Positions 8,809 through 39,388 of a DNA stretch of 64,000 nucleotides are shown piece after piece. A program made the position numbers and the translations under genes. Positions within the stretch are counted from its first letter, which is position 1. Each line of letters starts with the position of its first letter. Under the pieces are notes generated by a model. It worked only from the letters and a program-made list of their open reading frames with translations, searched no databases and was not told the origin of the DNA. This DNA is from Gemmatimonadaceae bacterium (GTDB taxonomy: Bacteria; Gemmatimonadota; Gemmatimonadetes; Gemmatimonadales; Gemmatimonadaceae): positions 23,557 to 87,556 of the forward strand of contig JACCWE010000144.1 in the NCBI GenBank assembly GCA_013697785.1. The letters are read 5' to 3'.

Positions 8809-8862
8809 AGCCTATGTCGCAAGAATGACGGGAACAAACCTCTGCGCATATCGGCGCTCCGT

Positions 8863-11938: not shown

Positions 11939-12045
11939 CGAATCTCCGCCCGTACGAGAGTGGATTCCAGAAACGATGTGCGCGACTCGGCGAGTTGGAA
12001 AGGCACGTGAGGCGCATGACATGGATGACGCGCGGTCTGCCGGGG

Positions 12046-12168: not shown

Positions 12169-12253
12169 GCCATCGCGAAGAGACGGAATCGTCCTCTGCT
12201 GACGATCTCCCACCGCACCACCACCGAGCGGCGCGATCGCGGAGCCAACTGCC

Positions 12254-12343
12254 CGCGACAAAGGCAAAGCCGTCGAAAGGCGGCGACGCAAAGCCAACGA
12301 GGCTTCGGCGCCCAGTGAGTGCGCCATGCCGGTCGGGTTGCCG
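12254..12343 (+). promoter_or_regulatory. c-di-GMP-I (GEMM) riboswitch
   Basis: GCGACAAAGGCAAAGCCGTCGAAAGGCGGCGACGCAAAGCCAACGAGGCTTCGGCG...GCCGGTCGGGTTGCCG: canonical GGCAAA-stem-GAAA-stem, GACGCAAAGCC, and GGGTTGCCG blocks. Confidence 0.95.
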
Positions 12344-12362
12344 TTGACCGGAGACTCAACCA

Positions 12363-13763: not shown

Positions 13764-13786
13764 AATCCTCACGCACGCGCGCTTGC

Positions 13787-13829
13787 GCCGATTGATCCTT
13801 ACCTTTCGCAATCGGTTGGATCAATCGGC
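13787..13829. repeat. 12-bp inverted repeat (hairpin candidate) between paralog 1 and the next glycosyltransferase
   Basis: GCCGATTGATCC ... GGATCAATCGGC. Confidence 0.6.
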
Positions 13830-13864
13830 TCGACGCATGCATTTGAGGGGGAGCTCGATCGCTT

Positions 13865-15067: not shown

Positions 15068-15109
15068 GGCTTCGAGTGGTGTTGCGCTACCGCTACAGCG
15101 GACCTTTCC

Positions 15110-16603: not shown

Positions 16604-16625
16604 CGATCTCTCGCTCGCGCGCTCG

Positions 16626-21277: not shown

Positions 21278-22743
21278 AGCGCGTGCTCTCTCACGATGGA
21301 CACGAACGCGAGCGCACGCGCGCGATGCCTCCACGCGATCATTCCCGCATACACGGTGATGCCGACGAATACCTCGAGAGCCAAGCGAATCACCGGTGAC
21401 AACGTGTGCGGTAGTGTGACGAGGAGAGCACCCACTGCCAGAGACATGATCGCAGTCGAGCTCACGGCGGGCCAGAGCGTCTTGAAATATGTGACCGCGG
21501 GCATCTCGAGCACGCGGAAAGCCAGCCGGTATTGCGGCGCGACGACGATCGGATAGGCTACGATCCACACCGTCGCCACACCGCCGACGCCCCACTGCGT
21601 TCCGACGACGAACAGCACCGGCATCACGCACGCGGCGATCACCGAATACCACATGCTCTGTCGCGAATTCCCCGTGTAGATGAGCACCTGTGGCGTAACC
21701 GTATCGATCGATCGGACCCCGCCGTACAGCGCGAGAAGGCGAAGCGGAACGATCGCGCCGAGCCACTGGGGCCCGAGCACGACGGGGACGAACTCACCTG
21801 CGATGAGTGCGAGCCCCGCAGCAGCGGGAAGGGTGATGAACGCCAGCCCTTCGACGACGCCGAGGAAGTAGCGGCGAAGCGCGACGATATCGTGCTGCAC
21901 GGCGGAGAAGATCCCCGGCGTTACGCTCGAGACGAGGGAGCTGATGCGCTCCACCGGCATCGTCGCGATCTCCCATCCGAGCGTGTACGCACCCAGCGAC
22001 TGCTTGCCGAGCACGCGCCCGACGACGGCGAAGTCGGCGGTGTTGTAGGTGTACCAGGCGAGACGCCCGACGACTATATGCCAGCCGACGTGCAGCGCGC
22101 CGCCGATCGTGTCGAAGGATGATGGCCAGGCGAGCTTGTGCGGCCGAAACCGGAGTGCGAGCAGGGCGCCGCACGCGCTGCCGACAAGGCTTCCGTACAC
22201 GAGCGCCATGTAGCGGAAGCCACCGATGGCGAAGGCGAGCATCGTGATCATCTGCGCGAGATTCGTGAGCCCGTCGATCATCGCGAGGCGAGGATAGGCG
22301 AGATCTCGCGCGAGGAGCGAGCGAGGGAGCACACCGAGCGAGCCGAAGACGAAGTTGAGGCTGAGCACCGTGATGATCGTCGCGACCGCAGGCTCACCGT
22401 AGAAGCGCGCAATTATGGGAGAGACGACCACCGAAATGCCCGCGATCACGAGCCCGACGGCTACGCTGAATCCGCCCACGCGAGCGATCTGCTCCTCGGT
22501 GAGCTCGCGATGGCGGAGGATGGCAGCGGTGAGCCCGAACTCGTTGACGAGCGTGACGAGCCCCAGGTAGACGGCGGCCATCCCCATGAGACCGTAGTCG
22601 GATGGGGAGAGGATGCGCGCGACGACGAGCGTAGCGGCCCAGCTGAGAAGCTGGGTCGCCCACTTGGTTCCCCCCGTCCAGGCGATGCCCGACACCAGCG
22701 ATTTGTCGAGTGACAGGCTGTCGGTTTGCGGAGGGGGGAGCAT
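21274..22743 (-). CDS. Wzx-like oligosaccharide flippase
   Basis: SGIAWTGGTKWATQLLSWAATLVVARILSPSDYGLMGMAAVYLGLVTLVNEFGLTAAILRH. Confidence 0.9.
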   Translation of the reverse strand: MLPPPQTDSLSLDKSLVSGIAWTGGTKWATQLLSWAATLVVARILSPSDYGLMGMAAVYLGLVTLVNEFGLTAAILRHRELTEEQIARVGGFSVAVGLVIAGISVVVSPIIARFYGEPAVATIITVLSLNFVFGSLGVLPRSLLARDLAYPRLAMIDGLTNLAQMITMLAFAIGGFRYMALVYGSLVGSACGALLALRFRPHKLAWPSSFDTIGGALHVGWHIVVGRLAWYTYNTADFAVVGRVLGKQSLGAYTLGWEIATMPVERISSLVSSVTPGIFSAVQHDIVALRRYFLGVVEGLAFITLPAAAGLALIAGEFVPVVLGPQWLGAIVPLRLLALYGGVRSIDTVTPQVLIYTGNSRQSMWYSVIAACVMPVLFVVGTQWGVGGVATVWIVAYPIVVAPQYRLAFRVLEMPAVTYFKTLWPAVSSTAIMSLAVGALLVTLPHTLSPVIRLALEVFVGITVYAGMIAWRHRARALAFVSIVREHAL

Positions 22744-22907
22744 TACGCTTTCGTCGGCGATCGTCGGCTTGGCTTTATGGTACGGCTTGCGTTGGCGATC
22801 GATAGTCGATTCACCGCGCGTGGAGTACGCGTCCGCTATCGAGCATTAGCTGTGCCTTCCGTGGTATTGTCGGCGCTGGTTGCGCCATCCCCCGACGGGG
22901 CCGACAT

Positions 22908-24074
22908 TTGCTCGCGAACTCTCCCTTCAACCCGACCGCACTGACCACACCTCTCACGATCCTGCACCTCCTGGCCCCCGCTCCGGTTGGGGGGCTCGAG
23001 ACCGTCGTGTCGACGCTTGCCCAGGCGCAAAGCCGAGCGGGGCATAGAGTTATGGTTGCGCCAACGCTTTCGAATCCGGGCGAAGGTGCGGGTTTTCTGG
23101 CCTCGCTCTCGAAAACCGGCGTCGAGGTGATTCCTCTCGCGGTTTCCGGGCGTGGCTACCTCCGCGAGGGATCGCTCATCCGGAAGTTGGTCGCGCAGAA
23201 GCATGTAAGTGTAGTTCACACACATGGTTATCGGTCGGATCTAATCGGTGGACACGCGGGACACAGATCGAGAGTGCCGATAGTAACCACTGTTCACGGT
23301 TTTACCGGTGGCGGGATCAAAAATCGGACGTTCGAAGCACTCCAACGCCTCGCCTTTCGTCACTTCGACGCCGTCGTCGTCGTTTCCAAACCACAGGCTG
23401 ATCTCCTAGTCGCGAGTAGCGTCCCCAAAAGTCGCATTCATTTGATTCCCAATGCGCTGTCGGGGCACCCCGCGCCGCTCGATCCCGCCGCCGCACGTGC
23501 CGCTCTTGGACTTCCGGCGGGTGGCCTCATCGCCGGCTGGGTCGGGCGCGTCTCGAAAGAGAAAGGCATCGACGTCTTCATCGACGCGCTCTCGTCGATC
23601 GGCGACCGCGTGATCGGCGCCGCGATTTTCGGCGATGGTCCCGAGCGCGCGTCTCAGCAGGCACGCGCGGAGTCGATCGCGCCCGGCCGCTTCCAGTGGC
23701 TGGGCAACGTCGCCGACGCCTCGCGCTTCTACGCCGCCTTCGACCTCTTCGTCATGAGCTCTCACGCCGAAGGGCTCCCCATGGTACTCCTCGAGGCGAT
23801 GGCCGCTCGCATCCCGATCGTCGCCACGGCCGTCGGCGGCATTCCCGATCTGCTCTCGCCAAACGAAAGCATGCTCGTGCCGCCCGGTGACGCGAAGGCG
23901 CTCGCGGCCGCTATCCGCGCCACCGTCGACGATCCCGACGCGGCCTCCGCGCGCGCGCAGGCCGCGCAGCTCCGCCAGCGCGCCGAGTACGACGTCGCGC
24001 CATGGAGCGCACGCTACGAAGCGCTCTACCGTCATCTCCTCGGCGCTCGCGTCAAGGCGGGCGCACGCAAATGA
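22908..24074 (+). CDS. GT4 glycosyltransferase
   Basis: LHLLAPAPVGGLETVVSTLAQAQSRAGHRVMV...GRVSKEKGIDVFIDAL...MSSHAEGLPMVLLEAMAARIPIVATAVGGIPDLL. Confidence 0.92.
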   Translation: MLANSPFNPTALTTPLTILHLLAPAPVGGLETVVSTLAQAQSRAGHRVMVAPTLSNPGEGAGFLASLSKTGVEVIPLAVSGRGYLREGSLIRKLVAQKHVSVVHTHGYRSDLIGGHAGHRSRVPIVTTVHGFTGGGIKNRTFEALQRLAFRHFDAVVVVSKPQADLLVASSVPKSRIHLIPNALSGHPAPLDPAAARAALGLPAGGLIAGWVGRVSKEKGIDVFIDALSSIGDRVIGAAIFGDGPERASQQARAESIAPGRFQWLGNVADASRFYAAFDLFVMSSHAEGLPMVLLEAMAARIPIVATAVGGIPDLLSPNESMLVPPGDAKALAAAIRATVDDPDAASARAQAAQLRQRAEYDVAPWSARYEALYRHLLGARVKAGARK

Positions 24075-25243
24075 GTGTCGTTCCATACGTGCTCGTCGCA
24101 CTTCCGATAGCGATCTTCGCATGGGCATACGCCGGCTATCCGGCATTGCTCTGGCTTGCGTCGCGCTTTCGCTCGGCGGGCGCAGTGCCGAACGATCCGG
24201 CGACCTGGCCATCGATATCGATTACCGTCCCCGCCTACAACGAGGCGGCGCGCATCCGCTCGACGATCGAGAGCCTGCTCGCCATCGACTATCCCGCCGA
24301 CCGCCGCCAGATCCTCATCGTCTCCGACGCATCCACCGACGATACCGATCGCATCGTCGCCGAGTATGCGGATCGCGGCGTCGAGTTGCATCGCGTGGTG
24401 CAGCGCGCCGGGAAGACCGCCGCAGAGAACTCGGCCGCGGCATCGCTGCGCGGCGAGATCGTCGTCAACACCGACGCATCGATTCGCATCGAGCCGCACT
24501 CGGTGAAGGCACTGGTGCGCATGTTCGCCGATCCCACCATCGGCGTCGCCTCGGGGCGCGACGTCAGCGTCGGCTCCGAGTCGGAGGGGAATCGGGGCGA
24601 GCAGGGGTACGTGGGCTACGAGATGTGGGTGCGTGACCTCGAGACACAGCTCGGCGGCATCGTCGGCGCGAGCGGCTGCTGCTACGCGGCGCGCGCACAA
24701 ATTCAGCGCACTGTGCTGCGCGACGACCTCGCGCGCGATTTCGCGAGTGCGCTGATCGCACGGCGGCTCGGCTTGCGCGCCGTGTCGGTGAACGAGGCAA
24801 CCGCGGTGGTGCCGCGCACGCCATCGCTGCGCGCGGAGACGAAGCGCAAGGCCCGCACGATGGCGCAAGGGCTCGAGACGCTGCGCTACGGCGCGTCGCT
24901 CATGAACCCGTTCCGCTACGGCGCCTTCGCCTTTGCGCTCCTGAGCCACAAGCTTGCGCGATGGCTGGTCTACCTGTCCATTCCGTTCGCGATCGTGGGC
25001 ATTGTGTGGCTCGCGCTGTCGTCGCGCGTCGCGCTCGCACTCGCTTTTGCCATCATCGCGGGAGTTTCCGCCGGGTTCGCCGCGATGCGCTGGCCTGAAG
25101 GTCGCCGAGTCCCCCTGCCGCTTGCCGTCGCCGGCTTCGCGCTCGCATCGATTCTCGGCGGCCTCAGCGCGTGGGTGCTCGCGATGCGGAGCAAACGGCT
25201 TCCAATGTGGGAGCCGACGCGGCGCGCCGCGATTCCCGAGTAG
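24071..25243 (+). CDS. GT2 family glycosyltransferase, membrane associated
   Basis: ITVPAYNEAARIRSTIESLLAIDYPADRRQILIVSDASTDDTDRIV...VVNTDASIRIEP; C-terminal TM segments; ATGA overlap with previous gene. Confidence 0.9.
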   Translation: MSVVPYVLVALPIAIFAWAYAGYPALLWLASRFRSAGAVPNDPATWPSISITVPAYNEAARIRSTIESLLAIDYPADRRQILIVSDASTDDTDRIVAEYADRGVELHRVVQRAGKTAAENSAAASLRGEIVVNTDASIRIEPHSVKALVRMFADPTIGVASGRDVSVGSESEGNRGEQGYVGYEMWVRDLETQLGGIVGASGCCYAARAQIQRTVLRDDLARDFASALIARRLGLRAVSVNEATAVVPRTPSLRAETKRKARTMAQGLETLRYGASLMNPFRYGAFAFALLSHKLARWLVYLSIPFAIVGIVWLALSSRVALALAFAIIAGVSAGFAAMRWPEGRRVPLPLAVAGFALASILGGLSAWVLAMRSKRLPMWEPTRRAAIPE

Positions 25244-25401
25244 CACGCCGCCGCGAAGCTATCGGGAAGATTACGAAAGGCGGAATTGCTGTTCGTCGCA
25301 TCGTATGCTCCAACGCATCCGCCGACGTCCACGTACTCATGACATCCGCCGTCCACTCACATCCGTTCTCGCCCCGCCTCCCGCCGAGGATCGCGCAGCT
25401 C

Positions 25402-28400
25402 ATGCATGCATCTCGTTCGATCGCCCTCGCTTCGTTGGCCGCAGCGCTCCTGTTCTCCGCCACTCCTGCTCTCGCGCAACATCGCGCCACCCCGCTCGAC
25501 TCGGCCACGCTCGCGTCGTTCAGCTGGCGAAACATCGGCCCCGCGGACATGGGCGGACGCATCGCGGACATCGTCGGAATTCCGAGCCCGTCGAAGACCT
25601 TCTACGTCGCGAGCGCCGCGGGCGGCATCTGGAAGACGACGAATGCGGGGACGACCTTCCGCCCGCTCTTCGGCGACCAGCGCGTGGTCTCGATGGGCGC
25701 GCTCGCCATCGCACCTTCGGACACGAACCAGATCTGGGCCGGCACCGGCGAGCAGAACTCGCGCAACTCGATCTCGCCGGGCGGCGGGATCTTCAAGAGC
25801 ACCGATGGCGGGCTGACATGGAAGCTCATGGGTCTCGAGAAGACGCAGCAGATCGGTCGTATCATCGTGCATCCCACCAACCCGAACATCGTCTACGTCG
25901 CTGCACTCGGCCACGTGTGGGGCTCGAATCCCGAGCGCGGGCTGTACAGGACCACGGACGGCGGGAAGAGCTGGCAGCTCATCAAGTTCGTGAGCGATAA
26001 GGCGGGGTTCGTCGACGTCGCGATGGATCCGTCGAATCCGGATGTGATCTGGGCTTCGAGCTACGAGCGTGTGCGCGGTCCGTATTTCCTCAAGAGCGGC
26101 GGCCTGGGGAGCGCACTGTGGAAGAGCACGGACGCAGGTGCCTCGTGGACGAAGGTGGAAGGCGGCGGATTTCCCGAGACGATGAAGGGGCGCATCGGCG
26201 TCGCGATCTCGCGCAGCAACCCCTCCACGGTGTACGCGCTCGTCGAGGCGGATTCGATGCGCGGCGCATCGCATGCGCTTCGCGCTCCGGCGAGCGACTC
26301 GGCGGGCGAGAAGCCGAAGGCGGCTGGCAGGCAGCGGCTGCTGAGCGGACTGTATCGCTCCCAGGACGGAGGGAAGACGTGGCAGTGGATGAACGACGTC
26401 GATGTGCGGCCCTTCTACTACTCGCAGGTACGCGTCGATCCGAAACTGCCGAATCGCGTCTACTGGTCGTCGACGCCGTTCAACTTCTCGGATGATGGCG
26501 GCAAGACGGTGCGCAACGGCACCGTCGGCGTCCACGTCGATCATCATGCGATGTGGATCGACCCGAATGATCCGGAGCATTTCCTCGTCGGCGACGATGG
26601 CGGCGTGTCACAAACGTGGGACCGAGGCGGCAACTTCGATTTTCTCAATCGCATCTCGATCGGCCAGTTCTACGAGGTCAGCTACGACATGGCGGTGCCG
26701 TACCGGGTGTGCGGCGGCCTGCAGGACAACGGAAGCTGGTGCGGTCCGAGCCGCAAGCGCGGCGCGATCACCAACGCCGACTGGTTCACCGTCGGCGGCG
26801 GCGATGGATTCTACACGGCGCAGGACCCGACGAATCCCGACATCATCTACGCCGAGTCGCAGGGGGGCAACATTCGCCGCCTCGACTACGGCACGGGTGT
26901 CGGCACGCCACTCGTGAAGCCTTCGTGGCGTCCGCGCTATCTGCAGGTCGAGGACTCGATTCTCGTCGCGCGCAGCGACACCGCGAAGCCGGTGCCGTCG
27001 TCGCAGAAGAAACGTCTCGCCGAGCTGCGCGCATTGCAGGAGAAGGACTCGACCGATCTCGATCTGCGCTTCAACTGGAACACGCCGTTCATCATCTCGC
27101 CACACGCGCCTTCGACGATTTACGCAGCCGGAAACCGCGTGCTCATGTCCACGAATCGCGGCGATGACTTCCTCCCGATCTCGCCCGACCTCTCGACACG
27201 CGATATGGCGAAGGTGCGGTGGAGCATGGACTCGACGGGCGGCATCACGAACGACGCCACCGGCGCGGAGACGTACGGCGCGATCACGACGCTCGCCGAA
27301 TCGTACGTGCGTCCAGGGCTCCTCATGGTCGGCACCGACGACGGCAATGTCTGGCTGACGCACAACAACGGCGCGACGTGGGACAATCTCAGCGGACGCT
27401 TCCCTGGCGTGCCACCGAAGACGTACGTGGTTCGCATCGAGCCTTCGCACTTCGACAGCGCGACCTTTTACGTCGCTTTCGATGACCATCGCGTCGACGA
27501 TTTCGCGCCCTATCTTTTCGTCACGAGCGACTTCGGAAAGACGTTCAAGTCGATCGTGAATGATCTGCCGAAAGGCGGTCCCGACTTCCTGCATGTGGTC
27601 CGCGAGGATCCGGTGAACCGCGACCTGCTGTATGTCGGTACGGACGTGGGCGCGTACATCTCGCGGGACCGCGGAGAGAGCTGGCAGAAGTTCATGAGCG
27701 GGCTGTCCACCGTGCCCGTGCATGATCTGAAGATTCATCCGCGCGACCACGAGATCATTGCGGCGACGCACGGCCGCGGGATCTGGATCGCGGATGTGGC
27801 CGCTCTCGAGCAGCTGAAGGACAGCGTGTTCGCACAGAGCGGCGCGTATCTCTTCGCGCCGAAAACGGCGTACGCGTTCGGCGAACCCCCGGGCGCAGAA
27901 ATCACCGCCGGACAGAGCACGTTCCGCGGGCGCAGCGCGCCGTTCGGCGCCGACTTGATCTATCGTCTCACGAGCGGGTCACCGAAGGACACGGTGAAGA
28001 TCGTGATCACCAACGTGAAGGGCGACACGCTCAAGTCGTTGACGGGGCGCGGCGGCGCCGGAATTCATCACGTCACTTGGGATCTCACGGGGAAGACGCC
28101 CCCGCCGACGCCGCTCACTCCCGCGGGACGACGCGACAGCCTGATCACCGTGCGAAAGGTCGACCACGTCTTCGACTCGCTCGAGACGGCCGGCGTCGCG
28201 CCCAAGCCGGTGCTCGAGAATGTGCGTGAGCACCTCGAGAACGGCACCGTCAGCGATCTCTTCGATCGCGCATCCGGCGGGGGCGGCGGCGGTGGACGCT
28301 TTACGGAGCGTCCGGGCGAAAGTCCGCTGCCGCACCACGGTAGTGGCCGCGGAGGGCCGGACAGCACGAAGAAGCTTGCGGGCGCGGACACCACGAAGGT

Positions 28401-28680
28401 CGTGGGTGCTGCGGCGAACGCCGAGGGCGGAGCGGAAGGCGAGGGGGAGCCGGCCGTGAGTCAGGAAGTGCTGAGTCAGGTGCTCGGAGCCGTGCGCGCG
28501 AGTAAGGCGATGCCCGGCGGTGGATTCGGCGGCGCGCGCCGCGGCGGTACCATCGTCGAGAGCGGCGACTACGTGATCACGATGACGGCTGGTGGCACGA
28601 CACAGCGGCAGGTGCTGCGAGTAGAACAGGCCGAAGGGGCGGGTTCCCCCTCGGCCCCGGATGACGATTTACATCCGTGA
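25402..28680 (+). CDS. Secreted VPS10/sortilin-type BNR-repeat protein
   Basis: Signal peptide ASLAAALLFSATPALAQ; repeated GGIWKTTNAGTTF, GGIFKSTDGGLTW, GLYRTTDGGKSW, ALWKSTDAGASW. Confidence 0.88.
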   Translation: MHASRSIALASLAAALLFSATPALAQHRATPLDSATLASFSWRNIGPADMGGRIADIVGIPSPSKTFYVASAAGGIWKTTNAGTTFRPLFGDQRVVSMGALAIAPSDTNQIWAGTGEQNSRNSISPGGGIFKSTDGGLTWKLMGLEKTQQIGRIIVHPTNPNIVYVAALGHVWGSNPERGLYRTTDGGKSWQLIKFVSDKAGFVDVAMDPSNPDVIWASSYERVRGPYFLKSGGLGSALWKSTDAGASWTKVEGGGFPETMKGRIGVAISRSNPSTVYALVEADSMRGASHALRAPASDSAGEKPKAAGRQRLLSGLYRSQDGGKTWQWMNDVDVRPFYYSQVRVDPKLPNRVYWSSTPFNFSDDGGKTVRNGTVGVHVDHHAMWIDPNDPEHFLVGDDGGVSQTWDRGGNFDFLNRISIGQFYEVSYDMAVPYRVCGGLQDNGSWCGPSRKRGAITNADWFTVGGGDGFYTAQDPTNPDIIYAESQGGNIRRLDYGTGVGTPLVKPSWRPRYLQVEDSILVARSDTAKPVPSSQKKRLAELRALQEKDSTDLDLRFNWNTPFIISPHAPSTIYAAGNRVLMSTNRGDDFLPISPDLSTRDMAKVRWSMDSTGGITNDATGAETYGAITTLAESYVRPGLLMVGTDDGNVWLTHNNGATWDNLSGRFPGVPPKTYVVRIEPSHFDSATFYVAFDDHRVDDFAPYLFVTSDFGKTFKSIVNDLPKGGPDFLHVVREDPVNRDLLYVGTDVGAYISRDRGESWQKFMSGLSTVPVHDLKIHPRDHEIIAATHGRGIWIADVAALEQLKDSVFAQSGAYLFAPKTAYAFGEPPGAEITAGQSTFRGRSAPFGADLIYRLTSGSPKDTVKIVITNVKGDTLKSLTGRGGAGIHHVTWDLTGKTPPPTPLTPAGRRDSLITVRKVDHVFDSLETAGVAPKPVLENVREHLENGTVSDLFDRASGGGGGGGRFTERPGESPLPHHGSGRGGPDSTKKLAGADTTKVVGAAANAEGGAEGEGEPAVSQEVLSQVLGAVRASKAMPGGGFGGARRGGTIVESGDYVITMTAGGTTQRQVLRVEQAEGAGSPSAPDDDLHP

Positions 28681-30687
28681 CTAAGTTGTTCGCTTCTTGA
28701 TCAGAATCGCCGCCTCCGCATTCCTCAGCTTGATGGTGGTCACGGGTGAGCCGAGGGTCCCGTCGGCGTGCAGAGGAACCCACGTCTCGCTCGATGGAAG
28801 TGGGATCGAGATGGCTGAGGCATCGTCGTAGCGTTGCGTTCCCCATCCCGTTTGTGGCCGCACTATCACGAGCGCACGATCGAAATCGCGCTGAAATACA
28901 GCCACCCGCTGACCGAACGGATCGGTGCTCACTACGGACTCTGACAGCTGCTGACGGGTGGCCGTCGGGTGTCCGATGTTTGCCTCCTGCGCCGTTATCC
29001 ACACCGTCGAGAAGGGGCGGCTCCATTCGTTCACGAGCTGAAGCTGCAGCTTGTCAGGCGAATGGGGGACGACCATGTAGTAACTCGCGAGCTCCATCAT
29101 CTTGATCCGATGGAATGCACTGTCTGCGCTACCACCCAGACGCAATTTCACGGAATTCATATCCGAGTAGTCGAGAGCGTCGACGAAGTTCACGGACACC
29201 GAAGCGCCGAGCATCTTGTCGATCCAACTCCAGGTGGCGGGCAGCCCGGTGTAGAGCGGATTGTTCGCCTTCTCCATGTGAGTGGCACCGGCCGCGCTGA
29301 CGTCCGCGAAATCGGGATCGAAGTTGTACATCCCCGTATTTGGCTGCAGCATGGTCGCTCCTATTGCGTTCTTGAGCGTGCGAAGCAGCGCCGCGTAGTC
29401 GGTAAAATACTGGCCGCTGGGCGGCCAGCTGGTGGCGCTGCTCGTATATTCGCTCGAGCGGCCAGTCGAGTCCTTCAAAAAGGTTGCGAGATCTCCCGAT
29501 GCCTGAACATCGATGAACAGTCCATCCTGGCCCAACCCCAAACGTCGGAAACGATCCGTTTGGTAGGCGATGAGGCCTGGATCCCCTGGGTTAATTACCC
29601 AGACGTATGAGTTCCAACCATACGGCTTCAGGCGATGTGCGGCGTCGGCAGGCTGACCGAGGCGATGCAGGAACGCGGTCTCAATGTTGTACTGCGTATG
29701 CGCGGAATACCATCTCACCGCATCATCGTACCACTGGCTGGCGGGGAGGCCGGTTGACGGCGTCGCGGAGGGTAGCACGGTGAAGCCGAGGAGCACGTAC
29801 GGATAATTCTGGATCGTTGGGTTTACGGCTTTCCACGCGGCAGCACTGCCTGACATCGAGAGGTCGTAATGCTGTCCCGCCCATTGCCGCTCAACGCTGT
29901 TCCACGAGTAATAGAAATCCGTGACGGCGGTGCGGATGTGCGACCAGTGCGGCGACACAGCACTGTATCCGTTATACAGCGAGCCGGCGGACGTGGGTGG
30001 GAGCGGCGGCGGAGGTGGCGGCGGGGCCGGCTGATTCGGCGTCTCTGGTGCGGGTGGGTGCGCCACGCTGGCGCCAACAACGGTCAGTTGCGCCGTAGCC
30101 TCATTAGAAGCCGTATGCGCGAGAATGTTGACCGAGCCGGTCGTAACACCGGTGACCGCGCCAGTCGAGTCGACGCTCGCCACCGATGGGTCGGCGCTCG
30201 TCCACGTCACTCGTACGTTGGCAAGCGGGTGATTATTGACGTCCGTGACTGACGCCTGTAAGCGGAGCGAACTGTGAACGGAGACCTGCGCGGTTCCAGG
30301 ATTCACGCTCACCCACGTTGGCGTGGGCGGTGTGTTGGACACAATCACGAGCGCCGAGACGCGTCGGTGCCCCGACGCGATCGTGACTTGCGCGCTCCCG
30401 ATGGAGTGCGCGCTCACAGTTCCATCGCTGGCTACTGATGCGATTGAAGAATCGCTCGTGCTCCACAGTGCGGGTTGACCGGCGATGTCACGACCGGCCG
30501 AATCCAGCATGCGAACGGAGAGCAACAGCGACTGGCCGGGAGGCATCGTCGGCTGCGCCGGCGAGATGATCAACCATCGCGCGAGCGACTGTGGCGTAGT
30601 TGCAGAAGCCGACGGATCGGTCATTGCCGAGCAGGCGACGAGAGTCGCGCAGCTCGCGAGCGCGAGTGCGTAGCGAGAAATCGACAT
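28681..30687 (-). CDS. Secreted glycoside hydrolase-like protein (GHL15-like?) with N-terminal BIG2-type Ig domains, paralog 2
   Basis: Lipoprotein-like N-terminus; WSTSDSSIASVASDGTVSAHSIGSAQVTI and WTSADPSVASVDSTGAVTGVTTGSVNI (BIG2); C-terminal half collinear with 12363-13763. Confidence 0.7.
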   Translation of the reverse strand: MSISRYALALASCATLVACSAMTDPSASATTPQSLARWLIISPAQPTMPPGQSLLLSVRMLDSAGRDIAGQPALWSTSDSSIASVASDGTVSAHSIGSAQVTIASGHRRVSALVIVSNTPPTPTWVSVNPGTAQVSVHSSLRLQASVTDVNNHPLANVRVTWTSADPSVASVDSTGAVTGVTTGSVNILAHTASNEATAQLTVVGASVAHPPAPETPNQPAPPPPPPPLPPTSAGSLYNGYSAVSPHWSHIRTAVTDFYYSWNSVERQWAGQHYDLSMSGSAAAWKAVNPTIQNYPYVLLGFTVLPSATPSTGLPASQWYDDAVRWYSAHTQYNIETAFLHRLGQPADAAHRLKPYGWNSYVWVINPGDPGLIAYQTDRFRRLGLGQDGLFIDVQASGDLATFLKDSTGRSSEYTSSATSWPPSGQYFTDYAALLRTLKNAIGATMLQPNTGMYNFDPDFADVSAAGATHMEKANNPLYTGLPATWSWIDKMLGASVSVNFVDALDYSDMNSVKLRLGGSADSAFHRIKMMELASYYMVVPHSPDKLQLQLVNEWSRPFSTVWITAQEANIGHPTATRQQLSESVVSTDPFGQRVAVFQRDFDRALVIVRPQTGWGTQRYDDASAISIPLPSSETWVPLHADGTLGSPVTTIKLRNAEAAILIKKRTT

Positions 30688-30711
30688 AGGCCAAAGTCCT
30701 TACAGGCTCTT

Positions 30712-30803
30712 CGGGCAACCCGACCGACGTAATGTGCCGGGTGGCACATCTTAGTCTCGTAGGCTTTGCGTCCCCGTCTTTCGGCGGGTTTGCCGTTGTC
30801 GCC
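30712..30803 (-). promoter_or_regulatory. c-di-GMP-I (GEMM) riboswitch
   Basis: Minus strand GGCGACAACGGCAAACCCGCCGAAAGACGGGGACGCAAAGCCTACGAGACTAAGATGTGCCACCCGGCACATTACGTCGGTCGGGTTGCCCG: all canonical GEMM blocks. Confidence 0.96.
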
Positions 30804-31030
30804 GGGCGTCAGCCCGTGCGATCGTGCCGTACTGTGGGTTAGTAGGATGATCGTAATGGTCAGACGCGCCTTCTTTGTCTGACGTCACGATGCTTCTTAC
30901 ACGCGGTTTTGTCGCTCGCATCGCACACTTAACGCCGCGGCGTTGGCACGTATGATTACAGTCGCGTTCCTCCTCGCTGTGCGCCGTGCAGAGTCAAGAA
31001 ATTCTATGCGGCGTCGACATTGTGTGGGCG

Positions 31031-32122
31031 CTATGGACCGACGCTGACCGACACGTTTTGCGCGCTTGGAGGAGACGACGAGATTCGATCCTTGATGGCG
31101 AGAAACGGACGCTCGATGATCTTGAACGAGCCCCACGCCATACAGAGCGTAGCGGCGTAACCCACGGCGAACGTCAGCACCTTTGGGCCATGCGGCAGGA
31201 GCTTCTCACCCACGGAGAGTCCCCATACATGATAGAGATAGCTCGGATAAGAGATCAGTCCGAGCGTACGTGTTATCGGATGGTCGAGCCACGACCAAAG
31301 CGGAGTCGTCGAAAGGCCGAGCATCTGAATCATGAAAAGCGCGATAAGTGCTGCATCGACCGTCATCCCGACGCTGTAGTGATAGGCCAGAGAGGAATAG
31401 TGTCGAAACAGCAGAATCAGAGCGATCGGCACGAGGGGCAACAACGACGATGATCGAATTCGCCGTTCGAGAGTAACGAACCAGCCCTCGCCAGAGGAGA
31501 GCGCGAGGAAACAGCCGATCGCCAGCGCGTCGCAGCGTGTATCAAACGCATTATACACGTAAGAGGATGGCGCGTGCAGAAACACATACAGCGCCGATCG
31601 CCAAATCACGACAGCTACGACGAGGATTCCAACGGTACGCCTCGCAACAGCGCGCGAGCGATGAAGAAGGGCGAGACACGCCAATGGCCAAAGCAGGTAG
31701 AACTGCTCTTCGACCGCCAGACTCCACGCATGCGCGATCGACGTCGTCGGGTGTCCGAGAAAAGCGTTGTAGTAGTTGACGAGATAGGTGAAGGCGACCG
31801 AGACGAGTCCGAGCGACCAGCGATGCCCCAGTACGTTGTCGAGCGTCAGCGAAAAAAGGATGAACACGTAGTACGCTGGGAAAATTCGGAGCGCACGTCT
31901 CGTGTAGAATGCACGTATCGATATCGATCCCGTCGAGGCGTACTCCCGCATCAGCAACCACGTAATGAGGAAGCCGGACAGAACGAAGAAGAGCGTGACG
32001 CCCAGATCGCCAGGAATTGCCTGCATCAATCCGGCGTGGTAGGCAATGACGATGAATACGGCGACCGCGCGAAGCCCGTCGAGCGCAGGAAGGTGTCGGG
32101 CACGCGCGACGGGCAGCGTCAC
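31031..32122 (-). CDS. Acyltransferase 3 family membrane protein (OafA-like)
   Basis: LPALDGLRAVAVFIVIAYHAG...GVTLFFVLSGFLITWLLMREY...FYTRRALRIFPAYY. Confidence 0.93.
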   Translation of the reverse strand: MTLPVARARHLPALDGLRAVAVFIVIAYHAGLMQAIPGDLGVTLFFVLSGFLITWLLMREYASTGSISIRAFYTRRALRIFPAYYVFILFSLTLDNVLGHRWSLGLVSVAFTYLVNYYNAFLGHPTTSIAHAWSLAVEEQFYLLWPLACLALLHRSRAVARRTVGILVVAVVIWRSALYVFLHAPSSYVYNAFDTRCDALAIGCFLALSSGEGWFVTLERRIRSSSLLPLVPIALILLFRHYSSLAYHYSVGMTVDAALIALFMIQMLGLSTTPLWSWLDHPITRTLGLISYPSYLYHVWGLSVGEKLLPHGPKVLTFAVGYAATLCMAWGSFKIIERPFLAIKDRISSSPPSAQNVSVSVGP

Positions 32123-32155
32123 CTACACGCGCCGACAGCGATCATCTTGCGCACG

Positions 32156-33838
32156 CTATTGAAAGAGAATTGCAGCGTCGACGTTCCGCAACATCACACG
32201 CGTTACCGAAGCTCCGAGCGTACCGTCCCGATGAAGCAGTCGCATCGGCTTTGACAGCGGAACTTCGATAGCGGTGTCCTCGCCGTAGACAGTCGGTCGC
32301 CAAGTCACGGCCGGTCGCACGAGCACGAGCGCGCGCTCGAATTCGCGAGCGTAGATCCGATAGCTCTGTCCTTTCGAATCGACACCCTTGGCGATAATGT
32401 GTCTCGCCCGCACAGGATGTCCAACATCCACCTCCACCGCGCTCGCCCACGCTTTGTCCGGTCGAATATTCCAGAAATTCTGCTGATCGAACGAGAGCTG
32501 CTGAGGATCGGCGCCCACCGACATGTAGTAGCTGGCGAGCTGCGTCATTTGACCGCGCTCCGTGGGCGCGTTGTAGAGCCCTCCATCGAAGCTGGGATGA
32601 TTGTGCATGACGCCAGCCCATTCGGTATACGAGATCGCCGTCACGAACTCCGTGTAGACTCCACTCGCCAGCAGATGATCGATCTGGGTCCAGCGTCCCT
32701 CCGTTCGATCGCCAAATGGATAGTTCGTACGTTCGAGCTGTGCGCCGCCGCCCGCCACGACGATTGCAGAATCCGTTGGTGTCCAGTATTCCGCGATGTT
32801 GATCAGCAGTATGCGCGGAGCAATTGCCGCGTGAATGTGCGCGATCATCGCGGTTTCCGACGCGAGGTACGCCGCGCCGGTCGCGAATTCGTCCGTCGGC
32901 TTGATCGCGCCGTACATCGAGCCTCCGAATTCATCGAGAAATACGCCTGCATGTCCCTGCGCGATACGAACGAAACGATCAGCCTGATACGCGCGCGAGC
33001 CTGCGTCGCCCGGATTGATGAGCCATCGATATGACTCATTCTTGAACGCTACGCGATGAGTCGAATCGTGACCACCTCGATGCAGGTATGCGGATTCGTA
33101 ATCATACTTGGGATTCAACGCATACCAGCGAATCATGTCGGCCGTAAACGCCGTCGTCAGACTCGCGTTGGATTTTCCGGCGGGACTTTGCACGACCTCG
33201 TACTGCAACGCGTATGGGAAATATCGAATCGTGGGATTCACATTTTTCCACGCCGCCGCCGGCCCCGACATGATCGCATCCACTCGTGGACCGAGGAAAC
33301 CGATCGTCGCGTCGCGGTCCGATGGAGACGCATAGGCCGAATAGAAATCCGTGTAGAATACGCTTATGTGCGAGTAATGTGGGGATTGAGTCGCTCCGCT
33401 CCGGGCGAGAGCTCTCGGCGCCACCTCGTTGATGTGCGCCGGCCGCGCTGCATTGGCGTCATTTTTCGTAGTGCCCACGGCGGAGGGCGAATACACGCTC
33501 ACCTGAGTCGACACTACGCTCGGTCCGATCCTGCCGCTCACTCCGGTAACGCCGGCGCCGGTGGCAGTGATGACTCCATTGGCGTCGACACGGGCGATCG
33601 CAGGATTGTCAGTGGACCAGGCAACGGCGCGTTTAACAACGTGACCGGCGGAATCACGAACCGTCGCCCGAGCGGTGGTCGATTGCCCCACGTCGAGCGA
33701 GCGACGTGCGGAGTCGATCACGATCGTCTCGGGCTGTTGTGCGGAGACGGGAGCGCAGGCGACAACAGCGCTCAGGGTGAGAAGCACCACGAGACGATTC
33801 GCGGTGTGTGCAACCAATCCGGCGATATGCTTTCGCAA
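32156..33838 (-). CDS. Secreted glycoside hydrolase-like protein (GHL15-like?) with one BIG2-type domain, paralog 3
   Basis: AWSTDNPAIARVDANGVITATGAGVTGVSG (BIG2); HYSHISVFYTDFYSAY, AWKNVNPTIRYFPYAL, GVFLDEFG, VDVGHPVRAR shared with the two paralogs. Confidence 0.7.
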   Translation of the reverse strand: MRKHIAGLVAHTANRLVVLLTLSAVVACAPVSAQQPETIVIDSARRSLDVGQSTTARATVRDSAGHVVKRAVAWSTDNPAIARVDANGVITATGAGVTGVSGRIGPSVVSTQVSVYSPSAVGTTKNDANAARPAHINEVAPRALARSGATQSPHYSHISVFYTDFYSAYASPSDRDATIGFLGPRVDAIMSGPAAAWKNVNPTIRYFPYALQYEVVQSPAGKSNASLTTAFTADMIRWYALNPKYDYESAYLHRGGHDSTHRVAFKNESYRWLINPGDAGSRAYQADRFVRIAQGHAGVFLDEFGGSMYGAIKPTDEFATGAAYLASETAMIAHIHAAIAPRILLINIAEYWTPTDSAIVVAGGGAQLERTNYPFGDRTEGRWTQIDHLLASGVYTEFVTAISYTEWAGVMHNHPSFDGGLYNAPTERGQMTQLASYYMSVGADPQQLSFDQQNFWNIRPDKAWASAVEVDVGHPVRARHIIAKGVDSKGQSYRIYAREFERALVLVRPAVTWRPTVYGEDTAIEVPLSKPMRLLHRDGTLGASVTRVMLRNVDAAILFQ

Positions 33839-33878
33839 AGTAGCGCCTCGTATCGTCGATGCGATTCCTGCGATTAGC

Positions 33879-34730
33879 CTACCAGCCGCTGCGCCGGAAC
33901 AGCATCACCGGCACCGTCTTCGCCATGATCTTGAGATCCTCGGCCAGGCACTGGCGCTCGAGATACTCGAGGTCGTAGCGGATCTTCGTGCGCACGTCGT
34001 CGATCGACGTGTCGTACGCATGATTGATCTGCGCCCAGCCGGTGATGCCGGGGCGCGTGCGCTGGCGGAGTCTGTAATCGGGAAGATCTTCGCGAAGGCG
34101 AACGAAAATGCTCGGACGCTCGGGGCGCGGACCAACGATGTTCATGTCGCCACGGATCACGTTCCACAGCTGCGGCAGCTCGTCGAGGCGGGTGCGGCGG
34201 AGGATACGGCCCAGCTTCGTCACACGCGGATCGTTTCGCGTGGCCCATACTGCCCCGCTATTTCGCTCTGCATCCGCGCGCATCGTGCGGAATTTGTAGA
34301 TCGTGAAGATCATCCCACCCTGATCCTGCTTGCGATTGCTGTACAGCGCATCGATCGCGTGGCGGCGGCGATCGAGCCCGACGCGTGTCTGTGAGTACAC
34401 GATAGGACCGTGCGATGTCAGCTTGACGGCCACCGCGACGAGCGCGATCACCGGTGACAGCGCCACGAGCGAAACGGACGCGAGCGTCACGTTCACGCAG
34501 CGGTTCGCGATCTCGGAGCGATCGCGCACGACGCACGTGGGCGCGGTCTGCGGCGCGCGCCGCTCCACGCGACGTGGCGTGTCGATTCCCGCTGGCGAAT
34601 CGGCAGAGGGCGTGACGATGCGTCCGCTCCCACTCCGACGTCGAGTTGGTGCGCGCTCAACCATCGGTTGTTCGCTGACCTGCGGGATACTCCACACTTT
34701 CGCTGCTCCTTCGCTACGTCCGTTGCTCAA
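33879..34730 (-). CDS. Undecaprenyl-phosphate sugar transferase (WcaJ/ExoY-like)
   Basis: FTIYKFRTMRADAERNSGAVWATRNDPRVTKLGRILRRTRLDELPQLWNVIRGDMNIVGPRPERP...RPGITGWAQINH. Confidence 0.95.
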   Translation of the reverse strand: MSNGRSEGAAKVWSIPQVSEQPMVERAPTRRRSGSGRIVTPSADSPAGIDTPRRVERRAPQTAPTCVVRDRSEIANRCVNVTLASVSLVALSPVIALVAVAVKLTSHGPIVYSQTRVGLDRRRHAIDALYSNRKQDQGGMIFTIYKFRTMRADAERNSGAVWATRNDPRVTKLGRILRRTRLDELPQLWNVIRGDMNIVGPRPERPSIFVRLREDLPDYRLRQRTRPGITGWAQINHAYDTSIDDVRTKIRYDLEYLERQCLAEDLKIMAKTVPVMLFRRSGW

Positions 34731-35557
34731 TGGCGCCTCAGTACTACGATGGTGCTCACCAGCCCTGCGGTAATTCCGACGATCGACGCGATCAAGGCGA
34801 AATTGGTGTGATGGCGCTCACCTATCACTATCTGATCGCCCGGTCTGATGTTGAGCTGATCGAGCGTTGCTCCTTTCGCAACTTCCTGGCCGAGCAGCGT
34901 CGACGAGTAGACGACATCACTGCCGCGCTTCACCTGCGTCCGGTCGACATCCGCATTCTGCGTCGGTCCGCCTGCCATCATGATCGCATCGGCCAGCGCG
35001 ATGTCCGCCGGGAGCTGATAGAACCCCGGCTTGCTCACTGCACCCATCACCGCCACACGCACCAGCGACATCGTCTGAACATCCGGCCGCTTGATGTATC
35101 GCGTCAGCTGCGTCGTCAGATACTCCTGAAGCTCCGAGCGAAGCACTCCCTGCAGCGAGATGTCCGGCAAATTGGGCAACTTGATCACTCTCCCCGCGCG
35201 GACGACTACCGTGTCACTCACCAACGAATCGGTGCGAATCGATAAAAAAACACGGTCGCCTACATCGAAATCACCGTCGCGCAGCCGTGCACGAATCGTC
35301 GCCGCCTGCATCTGCTTCTGAGCGCGAAGCCCGGCATCGGTCTGCGCCGCGGCCTCCTGATCCGTTGTCACCGCCAGCGCCTGCAACTGCACCCTTGTCG
35401 CCTCGGCGTGCTGACTCTCGCTCGGCGGCAACAACTTGGAGGAGGGCGGGGCCGAATGGTGGCAGGCGCTGAAGCCTGCAACGAGGGCCAAACCGGTGAC
35501 TGCTCCGCGGGCCAAGCTTTGCAGCCGGTCGAGGCTGTACCGAAATGAAGTGCTCAT
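34727..35557 (-). CDS. Wza-like polysaccharide export protein (SLBB)
   Basis: DFDVGDRVFLSIRTDSLVSDTVVVRAGRVIKLPNLPDISLQGVLRSELQEYLTTQLTRYI...VAVMGAVSKPGFYQLPADIALADAIMMAGG. Confidence 0.9.
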   Translation of the reverse strand: MSTSFRYSLDRLQSLARGAVTGLALVAGFSACHHSAPPSSKLLPPSESQHAEATRVQLQALAVTTDQEAAAQTDAGLRAQKQMQAATIRARLRDGDFDVGDRVFLSIRTDSLVSDTVVVRAGRVIKLPNLPDISLQGVLRSELQEYLTTQLTRYIKRPDVQTMSLVRVAVMGAVSKPGFYQLPADIALADAIMMAGGPTQNADVDRTQVKRGSDVVYSSTLLGQEVAKGATLDQLNIRPGDQIVIGERHHTNFALIASIVGITAGLVSTIVVLRRH

Positions 35558-35666
35558 GTACGCGGTGGTCATTGCACCAGCCGTGCTAGAGGTGAGAAGA
35601 ATGCCATTTGACGATAAATCTTTACGGCTTGGTGACTTGAGTAGCGGCCCCAACTGAGCGGTACAG

Positions 35667-35682
35667 AGCACGGACGGTGCCA
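35667..35682 (-). promoter_or_regulatory. Weak candidate sigma54 promoter upstream of the export operon
   Basis: Minus strand TGGCACCGTCCGTGCT; GG and GC at correct 12-nt offset, -12 element imperfect. Confidence 0.35.
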
Positions 35683-35842
35683 GTTGTGGCGAACCCTCCA
35701 CAATATCGACCGCCTCATACACAATGCGGTTGCACACCGGTTACTGAAGTGGACCGAAATGAATGACATGAGCTTGCACACGTCTGTAAGGGGTGATTCA
35801 TTAGATTTGTGATACACATCGCATTGCCCGCGTGTCAGCATT

Positions 35843-35867
35843 ACATCGTAGATGTGGCACCCGTGCC
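35843..35867. promoter_or_regulatory. Two adjacent palindromes in the divergent intergenic region
   Basis: ACATC-GTA-GATGT then GGCAC-CC-GTGCC. Confidence 0.35.
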
Positions 35868-36027
35868 CCATGAAAGCGTTTCCATGCATCGCTGCGTCCG
35901 TTGGAAGCTCCTTGCGCGCAACGAGTTATCCTCGTTTCGCCCCGATTGCACAGTACGTGCAGAGCGTGCGCCCGCACCGTAGCGCGCGTACTCGCTGCAG
36001 CGCGCAGCTCCCAGCCATCGGAAGTGC

Positions 36028-36978
36028 ATGACGGAAGACGGTCTCACCCCTCGACCTCCTCTCATTCTGCTCGCCAACGAGCACGAATGGGCCGCGCGTT
36101 CCCTCGAGACCATCCTCGGACCGCACGGCTTCGCCGTCCTGCGAGCATACACCGGTCGCCAGTTGCTCGGCCTGGTGCGGAGCGCGCAACCCGATCTGAT
36201 CATGGTGGACGTGCGGCTCCCGGATATGCGTGGCGTCGACGTCTGCCGCGCGCTTCGCGACGATCCGCACTTCCCCGAGGAGACGCCGATCATCTTCACC
36301 AGCTCGGGCACGCCTGAGCGGCACGAGCGGCTCGAGGCGTTCAAGGCCGGCGCCTGGGAGATCGTCAGCCAGCCCCTCGACGCCGAAGTCCTGCTGCTCA
36401 AGCTCGATGCGTACATGCGCGGCAAGCGCGCCGTAGATCGTTTGCGCGATGAGAGTCTGCTCGACCAGGCAACGGGCCTGTATAACATGCAGGGGATGGT
36501 TCGCCGAGCGCGCGAGATGTCTGCCGATGCGCAGCGCCTCCACGCGCCGATCTCATGCGTCGCGTTCACTCCCGTCGCCACTACGGACAGCGAGATGACG
36601 TCGCCGGCGATCACCGAGATCATGGTCGAGAGGCTCGGCGCCATCGTGCGCCGCACCGGACGCGCGTCGGATGCGATCGGCCGCCTCGGACCCACCGAGT
36701 TCGCGATCATCGCGCCTGCCACCGAAGAGCCTGGCGCGATCCGCATGATGGAGCGGCTCGAGTCACAGCTCTCCGACATGCTCACGCAGCCCGACGGCAT
36801 CGCGCAGCGCGTGGAGCTGCGCGCCGGCTACTGCTCGGTTGCGGATGGTGCGAAATCGGCCGTAGATGCGGTGGAGATGCTGCTGCGCGCGAACTCCGCA
36901 CTGCGCGACGCGCGCAGCGCCCAGCGCAGCGACGAGCTGCGCAGCTACGACAGCTCGCCGCTCAGGTTCGCCCTGTAA
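36028..36978 (+). CDS. Response regulator with degenerate GGDEF domain (REC-GPTEF)
   Basis: REC: DLIMVDVRLPDMRGVDVC, IIFTSS; GGDEF start DQATGLYNMQGM; signature RASDAIGRLGPTEFAII. Confidence 0.85.
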   Translation: MTEDGLTPRPPLILLANEHEWAARSLETILGPHGFAVLRAYTGRQLLGLVRSAQPDLIMVDVRLPDMRGVDVCRALRDDPHFPEETPIIFTSSGTPERHERLEAFKAGAWEIVSQPLDAEVLLLKLDAYMRGKRAVDRLRDESLLDQATGLYNMQGMVRRAREMSADAQRLHAPISCVAFTPVATTDSEMTSPAITEIMVERLGAIVRRTGRASDAIGRLGPTEFAIIAPATEEPGAIRMMERLESQLSDMLTQPDGIAQRVELRAGYCSVADGAKSAVDAVEMLLRANSALRDARSAQRSDELRSYDSSPLRFAL

Positions 36979-39388
36979 GCTCGCCGACCTGCGGCGAGGT
37001 ACGCGGTAGATCGTCATCCTCGCTCGTGGTGTACCCGTACAGATACGAGTAGTACTTGTACTCGCCCTGTGCGCGGATGTCGTTGAGCACGGCGCCCAGC
37101 ATGCGCACCGGCAAACGGTCGAGCAGCTTCAGCTTGTTCTCCGCCATCTTCCGGTCGGTCGCGCCCGTGCGCAGCACGATCAGCATGTTCTGCGTCGCTG
37201 CGGCGAGAACGAACGGATCGACGCCGGCACCGAGTGGCGGGCTGTCGACCACCACGACATCGTAGCGACGGCGAAGCTCGGCGATGAACTGCGACATCGC
37301 CTGCGAGTGCAGCAGCTCCGGTCCGCGATGACGACGCGTACCGCACGGAATGAGCGTGAGGCGATCGTGTGTGGTGCTCCGCAGCACTGCTTCGAACGGC
37401 ACATCGCCGCCGAGCAGGTCGAGCAGCCCCGGACGGCGGTTCGCGCCGAACATCGCGTGCAGCTGTCCGCGGCGCGTGTCGCCATCGACGAGCACCGTGC
37501 GATAGCCCGCCTCGGCGAACGACAGCGCGAGATTCGAGCAGACGAGCGATTTGCCATCGCCCGCGCCCGGACTCGAGACCGTGAGCATCGCCGAGCCGCT
37601 CGCGTCGTACTGATTGGTGATCGCCATGCGGATGGTGCGGAACGACTCGATCACCTGTGCGGCTTCCTCGGGATCGGGATCGCCGGCGCGCGAGCGCTTG
37701 ATCGTGGGCACGGCGCCGAGAATCGACAGACCGAGCTCGCGGGTGACCTGCTCGGAATAGCGAAGGCGCGGATCGGTGTGATCGAGCAGCAGCGCGAGAC
37801 CGACTGATGCGCCGAAGCTCACCACGAGGGCGAGCAGGAGAATCGTCGGCGCGGTGTTCTTCGTTGGTGCGAGTGGCGCGACGGCCGTGTCGAGGATGCT
37901 GACATCCGGTATCGCGCCCGCTTCGGCGAGCTTGGTCTCGGCGTAGCGCTGCTGGAGCATCGAGTAGAGCGACGAGCGCGACACGACATCGCGCTGGAGG
38001 CGCATCTGCTCGATCGTGCGCGACGGAATGTTCTGCAGCTCCGTCGACGCGCTCGCCATCTGGCGACTGAGATCGGTGCCGCGTGCCTGGAGATCGGCGA
38101 TCAGCGTGTTGAGCACCTGGGGCAGCGTCTGCGTGCGCATGGTCTGCACGGAAAGGCGGAGATCTTGTACGATGCGGTGCTCGTCGGTGTAGCTCTCGCG
38201 CGCGGCGCGGAGCGCTGCCTCGCGCTTGCTCAGATCAGTGAGCGTTGCCTGCAGCGCGGGCGATGCCTGTGCCGACGGGATGCCGATGAACGCGTCCGCA
38301 GTGATCGTATTCGGATCGCGCGCGAGGATCTGAAGCATCGCGATGTCGTGCTGCACCGTGAGGTACTGAGCCTTCTGCCCGAAGTAGTTGCCGATCATTG
38401 GGTCGCCGCCACCGGGCGACGCCATGCCGGTTGCGGGCGCAGCGATGAGCGCCTCGGACGGAAGGGTGATGGTGTTCTTGCGGAAGGACTCGAGCGAGGT
38501 CTCCGACGAGCGAAGCGCGCGCGAGGCCGTGTCGAGCTGGTCGGCGAGGGCCTTCGACTCTTCGGTGAGATTGCGGCGCTTGAGCTCACCCGCGGTATAC
38601 ACGAACTCGCGCATGATGCCGTTGAGGATCATCGCCGTGCGCTGGGCGCTCGCACCTGCGAGCGTGAGTTTGATGAACTGGCTGTTTTGCGGCAGTGCCA
38701 CTTCGACGCGAGAGATGAGTCCCGTCGACACGTCGCGCGGATTCACGACGGTGAAGGCGACGGCGCGGTTCGGTCCGAGGAGTAGAGCCGACGGCTTCCA
38801 TGCGAAGCCGAGCGCGCGTCCCACGGAGTCGCCCGCGATTCCGCTCTCGACGACCTTTTTCTCCTTCGTCGTGATGAGCGTGTAGTGCGTGTTCGCGGCG
38901 TCGGTGCGGAGCGTGTACGAGCCGGCGCGAAGGCCCGGGCGCGGCTGGAAGCCCTGAAAAACAGCCGAATCGCGCGCGAGACTGGGCCAGATGTAGAGCG
39001 AATACTTCCGCACCACATTGTCCATGATCGACGAACTCTTGATCAGATCCGCCCACGCGCCGGGAGTGACGAGCGGCTGCCCCTGGATCGGCCCCTGCGC
39101 GGCGCCGCCCTTCCCATCTTCCGAGATCCAGACCGTTCCCTGCGTCTGGTAAGCCGGCGTCATGAACTGGGTGACGCCGAAGCCGATGCCGGTGCCGGCA
39201 ATCACGACGAGCAGGATCAGCCACTTGTAGCGCTTGAGCGCCGAGAAGTAGCGCGACCACGAAATCCCCGGCTCCTCCATGGGCGATTGCTGCGCCCAGG
39301 TCGGCTGGTAGTTCTGGCCGTACGCAACCGAAGTGGGCTCGCGATTTGGCTCGACGGGAAGATTCGACGGAAATTGCGGAGCAGTCAT
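36962..39388 (-). CDS. Polysaccharide co-polymerase/BY-type tyrosine autokinase (Wzz-Wzc/CpsD fusion)
   Basis: Wzz-like N-terminal half with TM; Walker A SSPGAGDGKSLVCSNLALSFAEAGYRTVLVDGD; Tyr cluster YKYYSYLYGY. Confidence 0.94.
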   Translation of the reverse strand: MTAPQFPSNLPVEPNREPTSVAYGQNYQPTWAQQSPMEEPGISWSRYFSALKRYKWLILLVVIAGTGIGFGVTQFMTPAYQTQGTVWISEDGKGGAAQGPIQGQPLVTPGAWADLIKSSSIMDNVVRKYSLYIWPSLARDSAVFQGFQPRPGLRAGSYTLRTDAANTHYTLITTKEKKVVESGIAGDSVGRALGFAWKPSALLLGPNRAVAFTVVNPRDVSTGLISRVEVALPQNSQFIKLTLAGASAQRTAMILNGIMREFVYTAGELKRRNLTEESKALADQLDTASRALRSSETSLESFRKNTITLPSEALIAAPATGMASPGGGDPMIGNYFGQKAQYLTVQHDIAMLQILARDPNTITADAFIGIPSAQASPALQATLTDLSKREAALRAARESYTDEHRIVQDLRLSVQTMRTQTLPQVLNTLIADLQARGTDLSRQMASASTELQNIPSRTIEQMRLQRDVVSRSSLYSMLQQRYAETKLAEAGAIPDVSILDTAVAPLAPTKNTAPTILLLALVVSFGASVGLALLLDHTDPRLRYSEQVTRELGLSILGAVPTIKRSRAGDPDPEEAAQVIESFRTIRMAITNQYDASGSAMLTVSSPGAGDGKSLVCSNLALSFAEAGYRTVLVDGDTRRGQLHAMFGANRRPGLLDLLGGDVPFEAVLRSTTHDRLTLIPCGTRRHRGPELLHSQAMSQFIAELRRRYDVVVVDSPPLGAGVDPFVLAAATQNMLIVLRTGATDRKMAENKLKLLDRLPVRMLGAVLNDIRAQGEYKYYSYLYGYTTSEDDDLPRTSPQVGELTGRT

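Follow-up and report, generated by a model that had tools for sequence, protein, structure and literature searches.

Among c-di-GMP-I riboswitches, the type example is Vc2 of V. cholerae. The same species has Vc1, a c-di-GMP-I element upstream of gbpA for which positive regulation was reported (PMC4744006). In this system, transcription starts 225 nt upstream of the start codon and the aptamer lies in the first 111 nt, while the mechanism is unclear, with no apparent anti-Shine-Dalgarno sequence or terminator (PMC4744006). In our literature search, we found no paper on c-di-GMP riboswitches in Gemmatimonadetes/Gemmatimonadota, which does not prove that none exists.

Here, we analyzed a 64-kb stretch of DNA (the window) from a draft genome of 3.8 Mb, the close relatives of which are Gemmatimonadaceae metagenome genomes. 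The original prediction of a second c-di-GMP-I riboswitch before a BIG2-containing gene, on the strand opposite to that of the first, was confirmed; from here on, we refer to this element as W2 and to the other as W1 (Table 1). W2 resembles Vc2 in its full-length covariance match, the GAAA loop of P2, P3, the bases G20, A47, and C92, and the position in the 5' UTR. W2 differs from Vc2 in that it belongs to another phylum, has a short leader with a Shine-Dalgarno (SD) hairpin abutting P1, and has been duplicated together with a promoter-like box and a gene. Like Vc1, W2 precedes a gene for a secreted surface protein, the gbpA product being surface-binding; unlike Vc1, it is separated from the ATG by only 23 nt and is part of a duplication. 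W1 and W2 also share the overall fold and much sequence with c-di-GMP-I-GGC (RF03167), but the A47G change that defines this variant is missing in W1, W2, and their orthologs. The riboswitch class is known, and W2 adds a member to it; notable aspects are the duplication of its cassette, an upstream box common to many switches of the family, and a group of elements with U92. W2 would tie c-di-GMP, via RNA, to surface proteins of an exopolysaccharide cluster in a poorly studied soil phylum.

TABLE 1 Coordinates of features in the window
Feature	Position	Strand	Basis
Exopolysaccharide cluster	8728..39388		Pfam scans
c-di-GMP-I riboswitch W1	12253..12345	+	RF01051, 71.2 bits
Gene W1 (466 aa), secreted lipoprotein-like and in the GH-like family of W2, without Big_2	12363..13763	+	43% identity to W2; ORF and leader
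Gene W2 (668 aa), secreted lipoprotein-like, with two Big_2 and a C-terminal TIM-barrel GH-like domain	28681..30687	-	Pfam, AlphaFold, Foldseek, conserved acids
Predicted expression platform hairpin, CCGAAG-AG-CCU-GUA-AGG-A-CUUUGG	30691..30714	-	Folding of five orthologs/paralogs and leader alignment
c-di-GMP-I (GEMM-I) aptamer W2, with G20 at 30794 and C92 at 30715	30711..30804	-	RF01051, 67 bits; covariation; G20/A47/C92
Short GC hairpin abutting the aptamer 5' side, CGGGC-UGAC-GCCCG	30803..30816	-	Conserved in W2 orthologs
CGGCACGATCGC box	30818..30829	-	Fixed place upstream of G20 in many family switches; conserved in all W2 copies
Paralog W3, Big_2 and GH-like, without switch	32156..33838	-	34-36% identity; only two GEMM-I in window

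Identity and probable ligand of the W2 aptamer

W2 is a c-di-GMP-I riboswitch aptamer. Using Rfam cmscan, we found that it matches RF01051 with 67 bits against a cut-off of 35 (E 6e-11 for the window), with an alignment over the full length of the model (positions 1-87). The search with RF01051 that had been proposed as a check recovered both window copies at 67 and 71.2 bits, and the Rfam scan detected no GEMM-I element in the 64-kb window other than W1 and W2. The element had been mapped to 30687-30803; the aptamer is indeed there, at 30711-30804, while a start at 30687 takes in the leader and the ATG. The P3-like stem noted earlier, AUGUGCC/GGCACAU in the RNA, is the outer part of P3 and covaries. 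Across 13 related elements, the GEMM-I helices covary, with both sides changed in 11 of 25 pairs, and the fraction of paired cells was 93.9%, a value that none of 500 shuffles reached; controls were far lower.

The ligand-contact bases of W2 are of the canonical c-di-GMP type, i.e., G20 (in GGCAAA), A47 (in GACGCAAA), and C92 (in GGGTTGCC), in a numbering that we take to be that of Vc2 and that was also read from the RF03167 model consensus. Because the W2 group has an extra C, the register of C92 is ambiguous by one base, with a C in both registers. From the sequence, we infer that c-di-GMP is the ligand of W2. That W2 instead senses another cyclic dinucleotide, either cGAMP or the dinucleotide bound by the GGC variant, is very improbable. 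W1 and its ortholog in the same-genus genome G017 do match RF03167 above its cut-off (60.4 and 65.1 bits, respectively), and for the G017 ortholog this is even the model reported, yet G47 is missing there, and W2 itself falls under the cut-off (54.4 versus 59). Moreover, each of the seven genomic elements, W2 included, has G20 rather than the A20 of cGAMP-type GEMM-Ib, and W2 and all W1/W2 orthologs have A47 rather than G47 (the GGC model consensus is GACGCGAA versus GACGCAAA in W2); C92 of W2 also argues against another ligand. With the diagnostic bases G47 and A20 missing, GGC and cGAMP variant identities were rejected for W2.

The W2 leader and the predicted sign of control

The aptamer ends 23 nt, rather than the 25 nt given originally, from the ATG of gene W2, while the placement of the ATG at 30687 and of the SD-like AAGGA at 30701-30697 was correct. 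This SD lies within the predicted leader hairpin at 30714-30691, the base of which (C93-G95) doubles as the 3' strand of P1. In computed folds, an equivalent SD hairpin was present in all five W2-type ortholog and paralog leaders, that of the same-genus genome G016 being a re-paired equivalent. The energies of the five hairpins were near those of shuffles (z -0.7 to -1.9), i.e., the hairpins are modestly more stable. We detected no intrinsic terminator-like site in the W2 leader, and an intrinsic terminator was rejected as the W2 platform for this reason.

Based on these folds, control of W2 is likely translational, and we lean towards an ON switch. Without c-di-GMP, the leader hairpin would bury the SD. 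Since P1 and the SD hairpin draw on the same bases, binding of c-di-GMP should open this hairpin: P1 would take up C93 and its neighbors, the SD hairpin would lose its base, and the freed SD would allow increased translation of gene W2. When one P1 pair was forced in silico, SD exposure shifted little in most orthologs, and this did not separate ON from OFF.

We consider it rather unlikely that c-di-GMP turns W2 translation OFF by means of a P1 that extends into an upstream arm and draws in the SD region, in which case matrix-cutting proteins would be off at high c-di-GMP. Many leaders of the family have an upstream CTCC-rich arm that is complementary to the SD, which suggests OFF control for those layouts. 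Specifically, a CTCC/CCTC segment is located 11-30 nt upstream of G20 in 24 of 42 nonredundant family leaders, compared to 7.0 +/- 2.4 in shuffles, none of 500 of which reached 24, and P1-forced folds show pairing between the upstream segment and the SD for 43 of 71 leaders. In the family, complementarity between upstream and tail segments was also higher for matched than for mismatched leaders, again a layout that suggests OFF. However, W2 and its orthologs have no such CTCC arm immediately before the aptamer, their upstream-SD pairing in P1-forced folds is zero, and in these leaders the SD hairpin is in direct competition with P1. The leaders provide natural pairs for a comparison of ON and OFF platforms.

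Promoter-like box and origin of the cassettes

In switches of many Gemmatimonadaceae genera, a CGGCANGATCGC-type box is located about 33-42 nt upstream of G20. The CGGCACGATCGC box of W2 lies within a block of ~75 nt that is conserved in all W2 copies. The CGGCRNGATCGY pattern alone is unspecific (258 genome sites on both strands); since the box word is common in this GC-rich genome, only its fixed position is telling. The CGGCACGATCGC box is probably a core promoter or transcription start region, and the CGGCANGATCGC box may represent a promoter common to the switches of the family. We note that W1 also has a CGGCANGATCGC-type box (window 12229-12240, + strand).

It had been suggested that a whole regulatory cassette was duplicated or recruited twice. 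The clearest duplication involves W2 and a near-copy on contig C4 (referred to as C4), i.e., a pair that extends outside the window. The stretch common to W2, the orthologous copies in G015 and G017, the G016 gene, and C4 starts with ~75 nt resembling promoter DNA and runs through the aptamer and leader into the sequence for the signal peptide; beyond the ~75-nt block, W2 and C4 show no homology further upstream. The C4 gene is cut by a contig end in the draft genome, so that any C-terminal domain would lie beyond the contig. C4 and the G016 gene are alike further upstream and, therefore, probably represent one locus and W2 another. In the aptamer tree, W2 and the W2b elements group together (92/94), while C4 is basal to the W2a trio (98/83). 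Comparison of the W2 and C4 loci shows that a putative promoter box, the switch, the leader, and the start of the gene were duplicated as a unit, and W2/C4 thus allows the copying of a riboswitch along with its promoter-like box and gene to be traced.

Three genomes of the same genus (G015, G016, and G017) retain both the W2 switch and its gene. The original prediction had named absence of the element at orthologous loci in related genomes as evidence against it; within the genus the switch is present, while it is absent in the neighboring genus g19, where a sensitive scan detected no GEMM aptamer at the orthologs even at E 5. These switch-less orthologs therefore imply a loss or separate gains. 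In the tree of GH-like genes, all switch carriers are found in one clade of 12 (100/99) that includes three switch-less g19 genes, and W3 and its kin form a separate clade without a switch. This tree requires a minimum of two changes, either one gain and one loss or two gains.

For W1 and W2, we favor a single recruitment followed by duplication, which is not proven. It is quite possible, if short of probable, that the two switches were acquired separately, with their position in the same cluster a coincidence in a genome rich in c-di-GMP-I elements before lipoprotein genes. Two gains need no more changes than one gain and one loss, a tree in which the switch-bearing genes are strictly monophyletic is mildly rejected (p-AU 0.038), as the switch-less g19 genes nest among switch carriers, and the similarity of the W1 aptamer to that of C14 (84%) equals or exceeds its similarity to those of W2/C4 (72-78%). 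However, the switch carriers all lie within the one 100/99 clade, the AU test does not reject a tree constrained to group all ten W1/W2 aptamers (p 0.57), and the best switch tree with W1 and W2 aptamers together is as good as or better than the free tree. W1 and W2 also have the layout of box and short hairpin in common, but so do other switches. Overall, we have moderate confidence in a model in which W2 is a 5' UTR c-di-GMP-I switch that acts through the SD hairpin to turn translation ON, and in which its cassette was duplicated within the genus (W2/C4) and probably earlier with W1. The G016 copy of the W1 cassette (L097, 1877-1968) looks degenerate: position 93 is a G, and the GH-like reading frame is broken.

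Encoded proteins and c-di-GMP-I elements in the genome and the family

The W1 and W2 switches are both located inside the exopolysaccharide cluster, which has genes for a polysaccharide deacetylase, FemAB, DegT, three GT4, GT2, Wzy, a Wzx-like flippase, an acyltransferase, a sugar transferase, a Wza-like exporter, and a Wzz/Wzc kinase. The RF01051 matches of W1 and W2 together with the 43% identity of the two genes over about 440 aa support that the riboswitches precede a pair of paralogous genes, as anticipated; their separation, originally put at 17 kb, is 18.4 kb from aptamer to aptamer. The cluster also encodes, at window 36028-36978 (+), a response regulator whose GGDEF domain is degenerate (GPTEF). 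In g35 genomes, the homolog of this regulator (35% over 307 aa) directly follows the c-di-GMP-I element L047, and the situation at L043, L048, and L049 is similar.

Big_2 (PF02368) matches the N-terminal part of the W2 protein above cut-off (66.7 bits, two stretches). In the AlphaFold model (pLDDT 88.9, pTM 0.91), the GH-like domain is a TIM barrel with high confidence. Using Foldseek, we identified GH66 and GH168 as the nearest folds (E about 1e-11, TM about 0.5-0.6, 9-15% identity), the TIM-barrel fold being common to many GH families. D163 and E242 (GH-like domain numbering) are invariant in 26 homologs and located on barrel strands and are, therefore, candidate catalytic acids. Searches gave no convincing named Pfam, NCBIfam, or PDB-sequence family for this domain and no relatives in viral contigs. 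The GHL15/GHL hypothetical glycoside hydrolases, among which the GHL10 member Cwp19 is a characterized peptidoglycan hydrolase (PMC5765458), resemble W2 in the TIM barrel and conserved acids at strand ends. In contrast to GHL15, W2 has no Pfam match to GHL15 (PF14885) of its own and has GH66/GH168 as its nearest solved folds; two of the 26 homologs match GHL15 (best 2.7e-6), consistent with a weak relationship of the W2 GH-like domain to GHL15. The W2 protein may act enzymatically on the exopolysaccharide of its own cluster.

While the window has the two switches expected, the genome has seven c-di-GMP-I elements, including a weak atypical one. Six of the seven directly precede genes for secreted lipoprotein-like proteins, i.e., W1 and W2 (GH-like), C14 (multi-Big_2), C4 (a near-copy of W2), C37 (subtilase with PKD), and C161 (Big_2). 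The atypical element (L031, about 8047-8124 on contig C28; 37.5 bits) has a UUCG-type P2 loop and precedes a gene resembling an M15-type peptidase. For c-di-GMP enzymes, the genome has 10 GGDEF and 2 EAL matches. In the family, a c-di-GMP-I element is present in 123 of 179 genomes, and among 73 sampled elements the distance from G20 to the start codon of a lipoprotein-like gene usually varies little, at about 100-110 nt. A tentative, and in our view doubtful, interpretation is that a cassette of CGGCANGATCGC promoter box, short hairpin, c-di-GMP-I aptamer, and SD switch has spread within the family to numerous unrelated genes, both for surface lipoproteins (Big_2, subtilases, GH-like) and for REC/degenerate-GGDEF proteins. 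These would form a family-wide posttranscriptional c-di-GMP regulon with ON and OFF platforms, in which a U92 subgroup might read a different cyclic dinucleotide.

In this subgroup, U replaces C92 (GGGTTGTCG) while G20 and A47 are kept. It comprises L029 (1962-2051, on contig C37 of the same genome), its orthologs (L112, L115, L117, L119, L127, L129, L134, L136, and L122), and L140. On the 5' side, U92 elements often have ACGAGG, not ACAAAGG, and they mostly precede subtilase lipoprotein genes. The exact U92 pattern is restricted to the genera g1, g19, and g17, a match in G406 looking like chance; the ligand preference of these switches may differ. Finally, the window contains a SAM_alpha riboswitch (RF00521, 40.4 bits) at 4406-4480 (-), where a methionine synthase gene (ORF 808-4413, -) begins, and SAM_alpha is also found near GH-like genes in g19 (L102 and L103).
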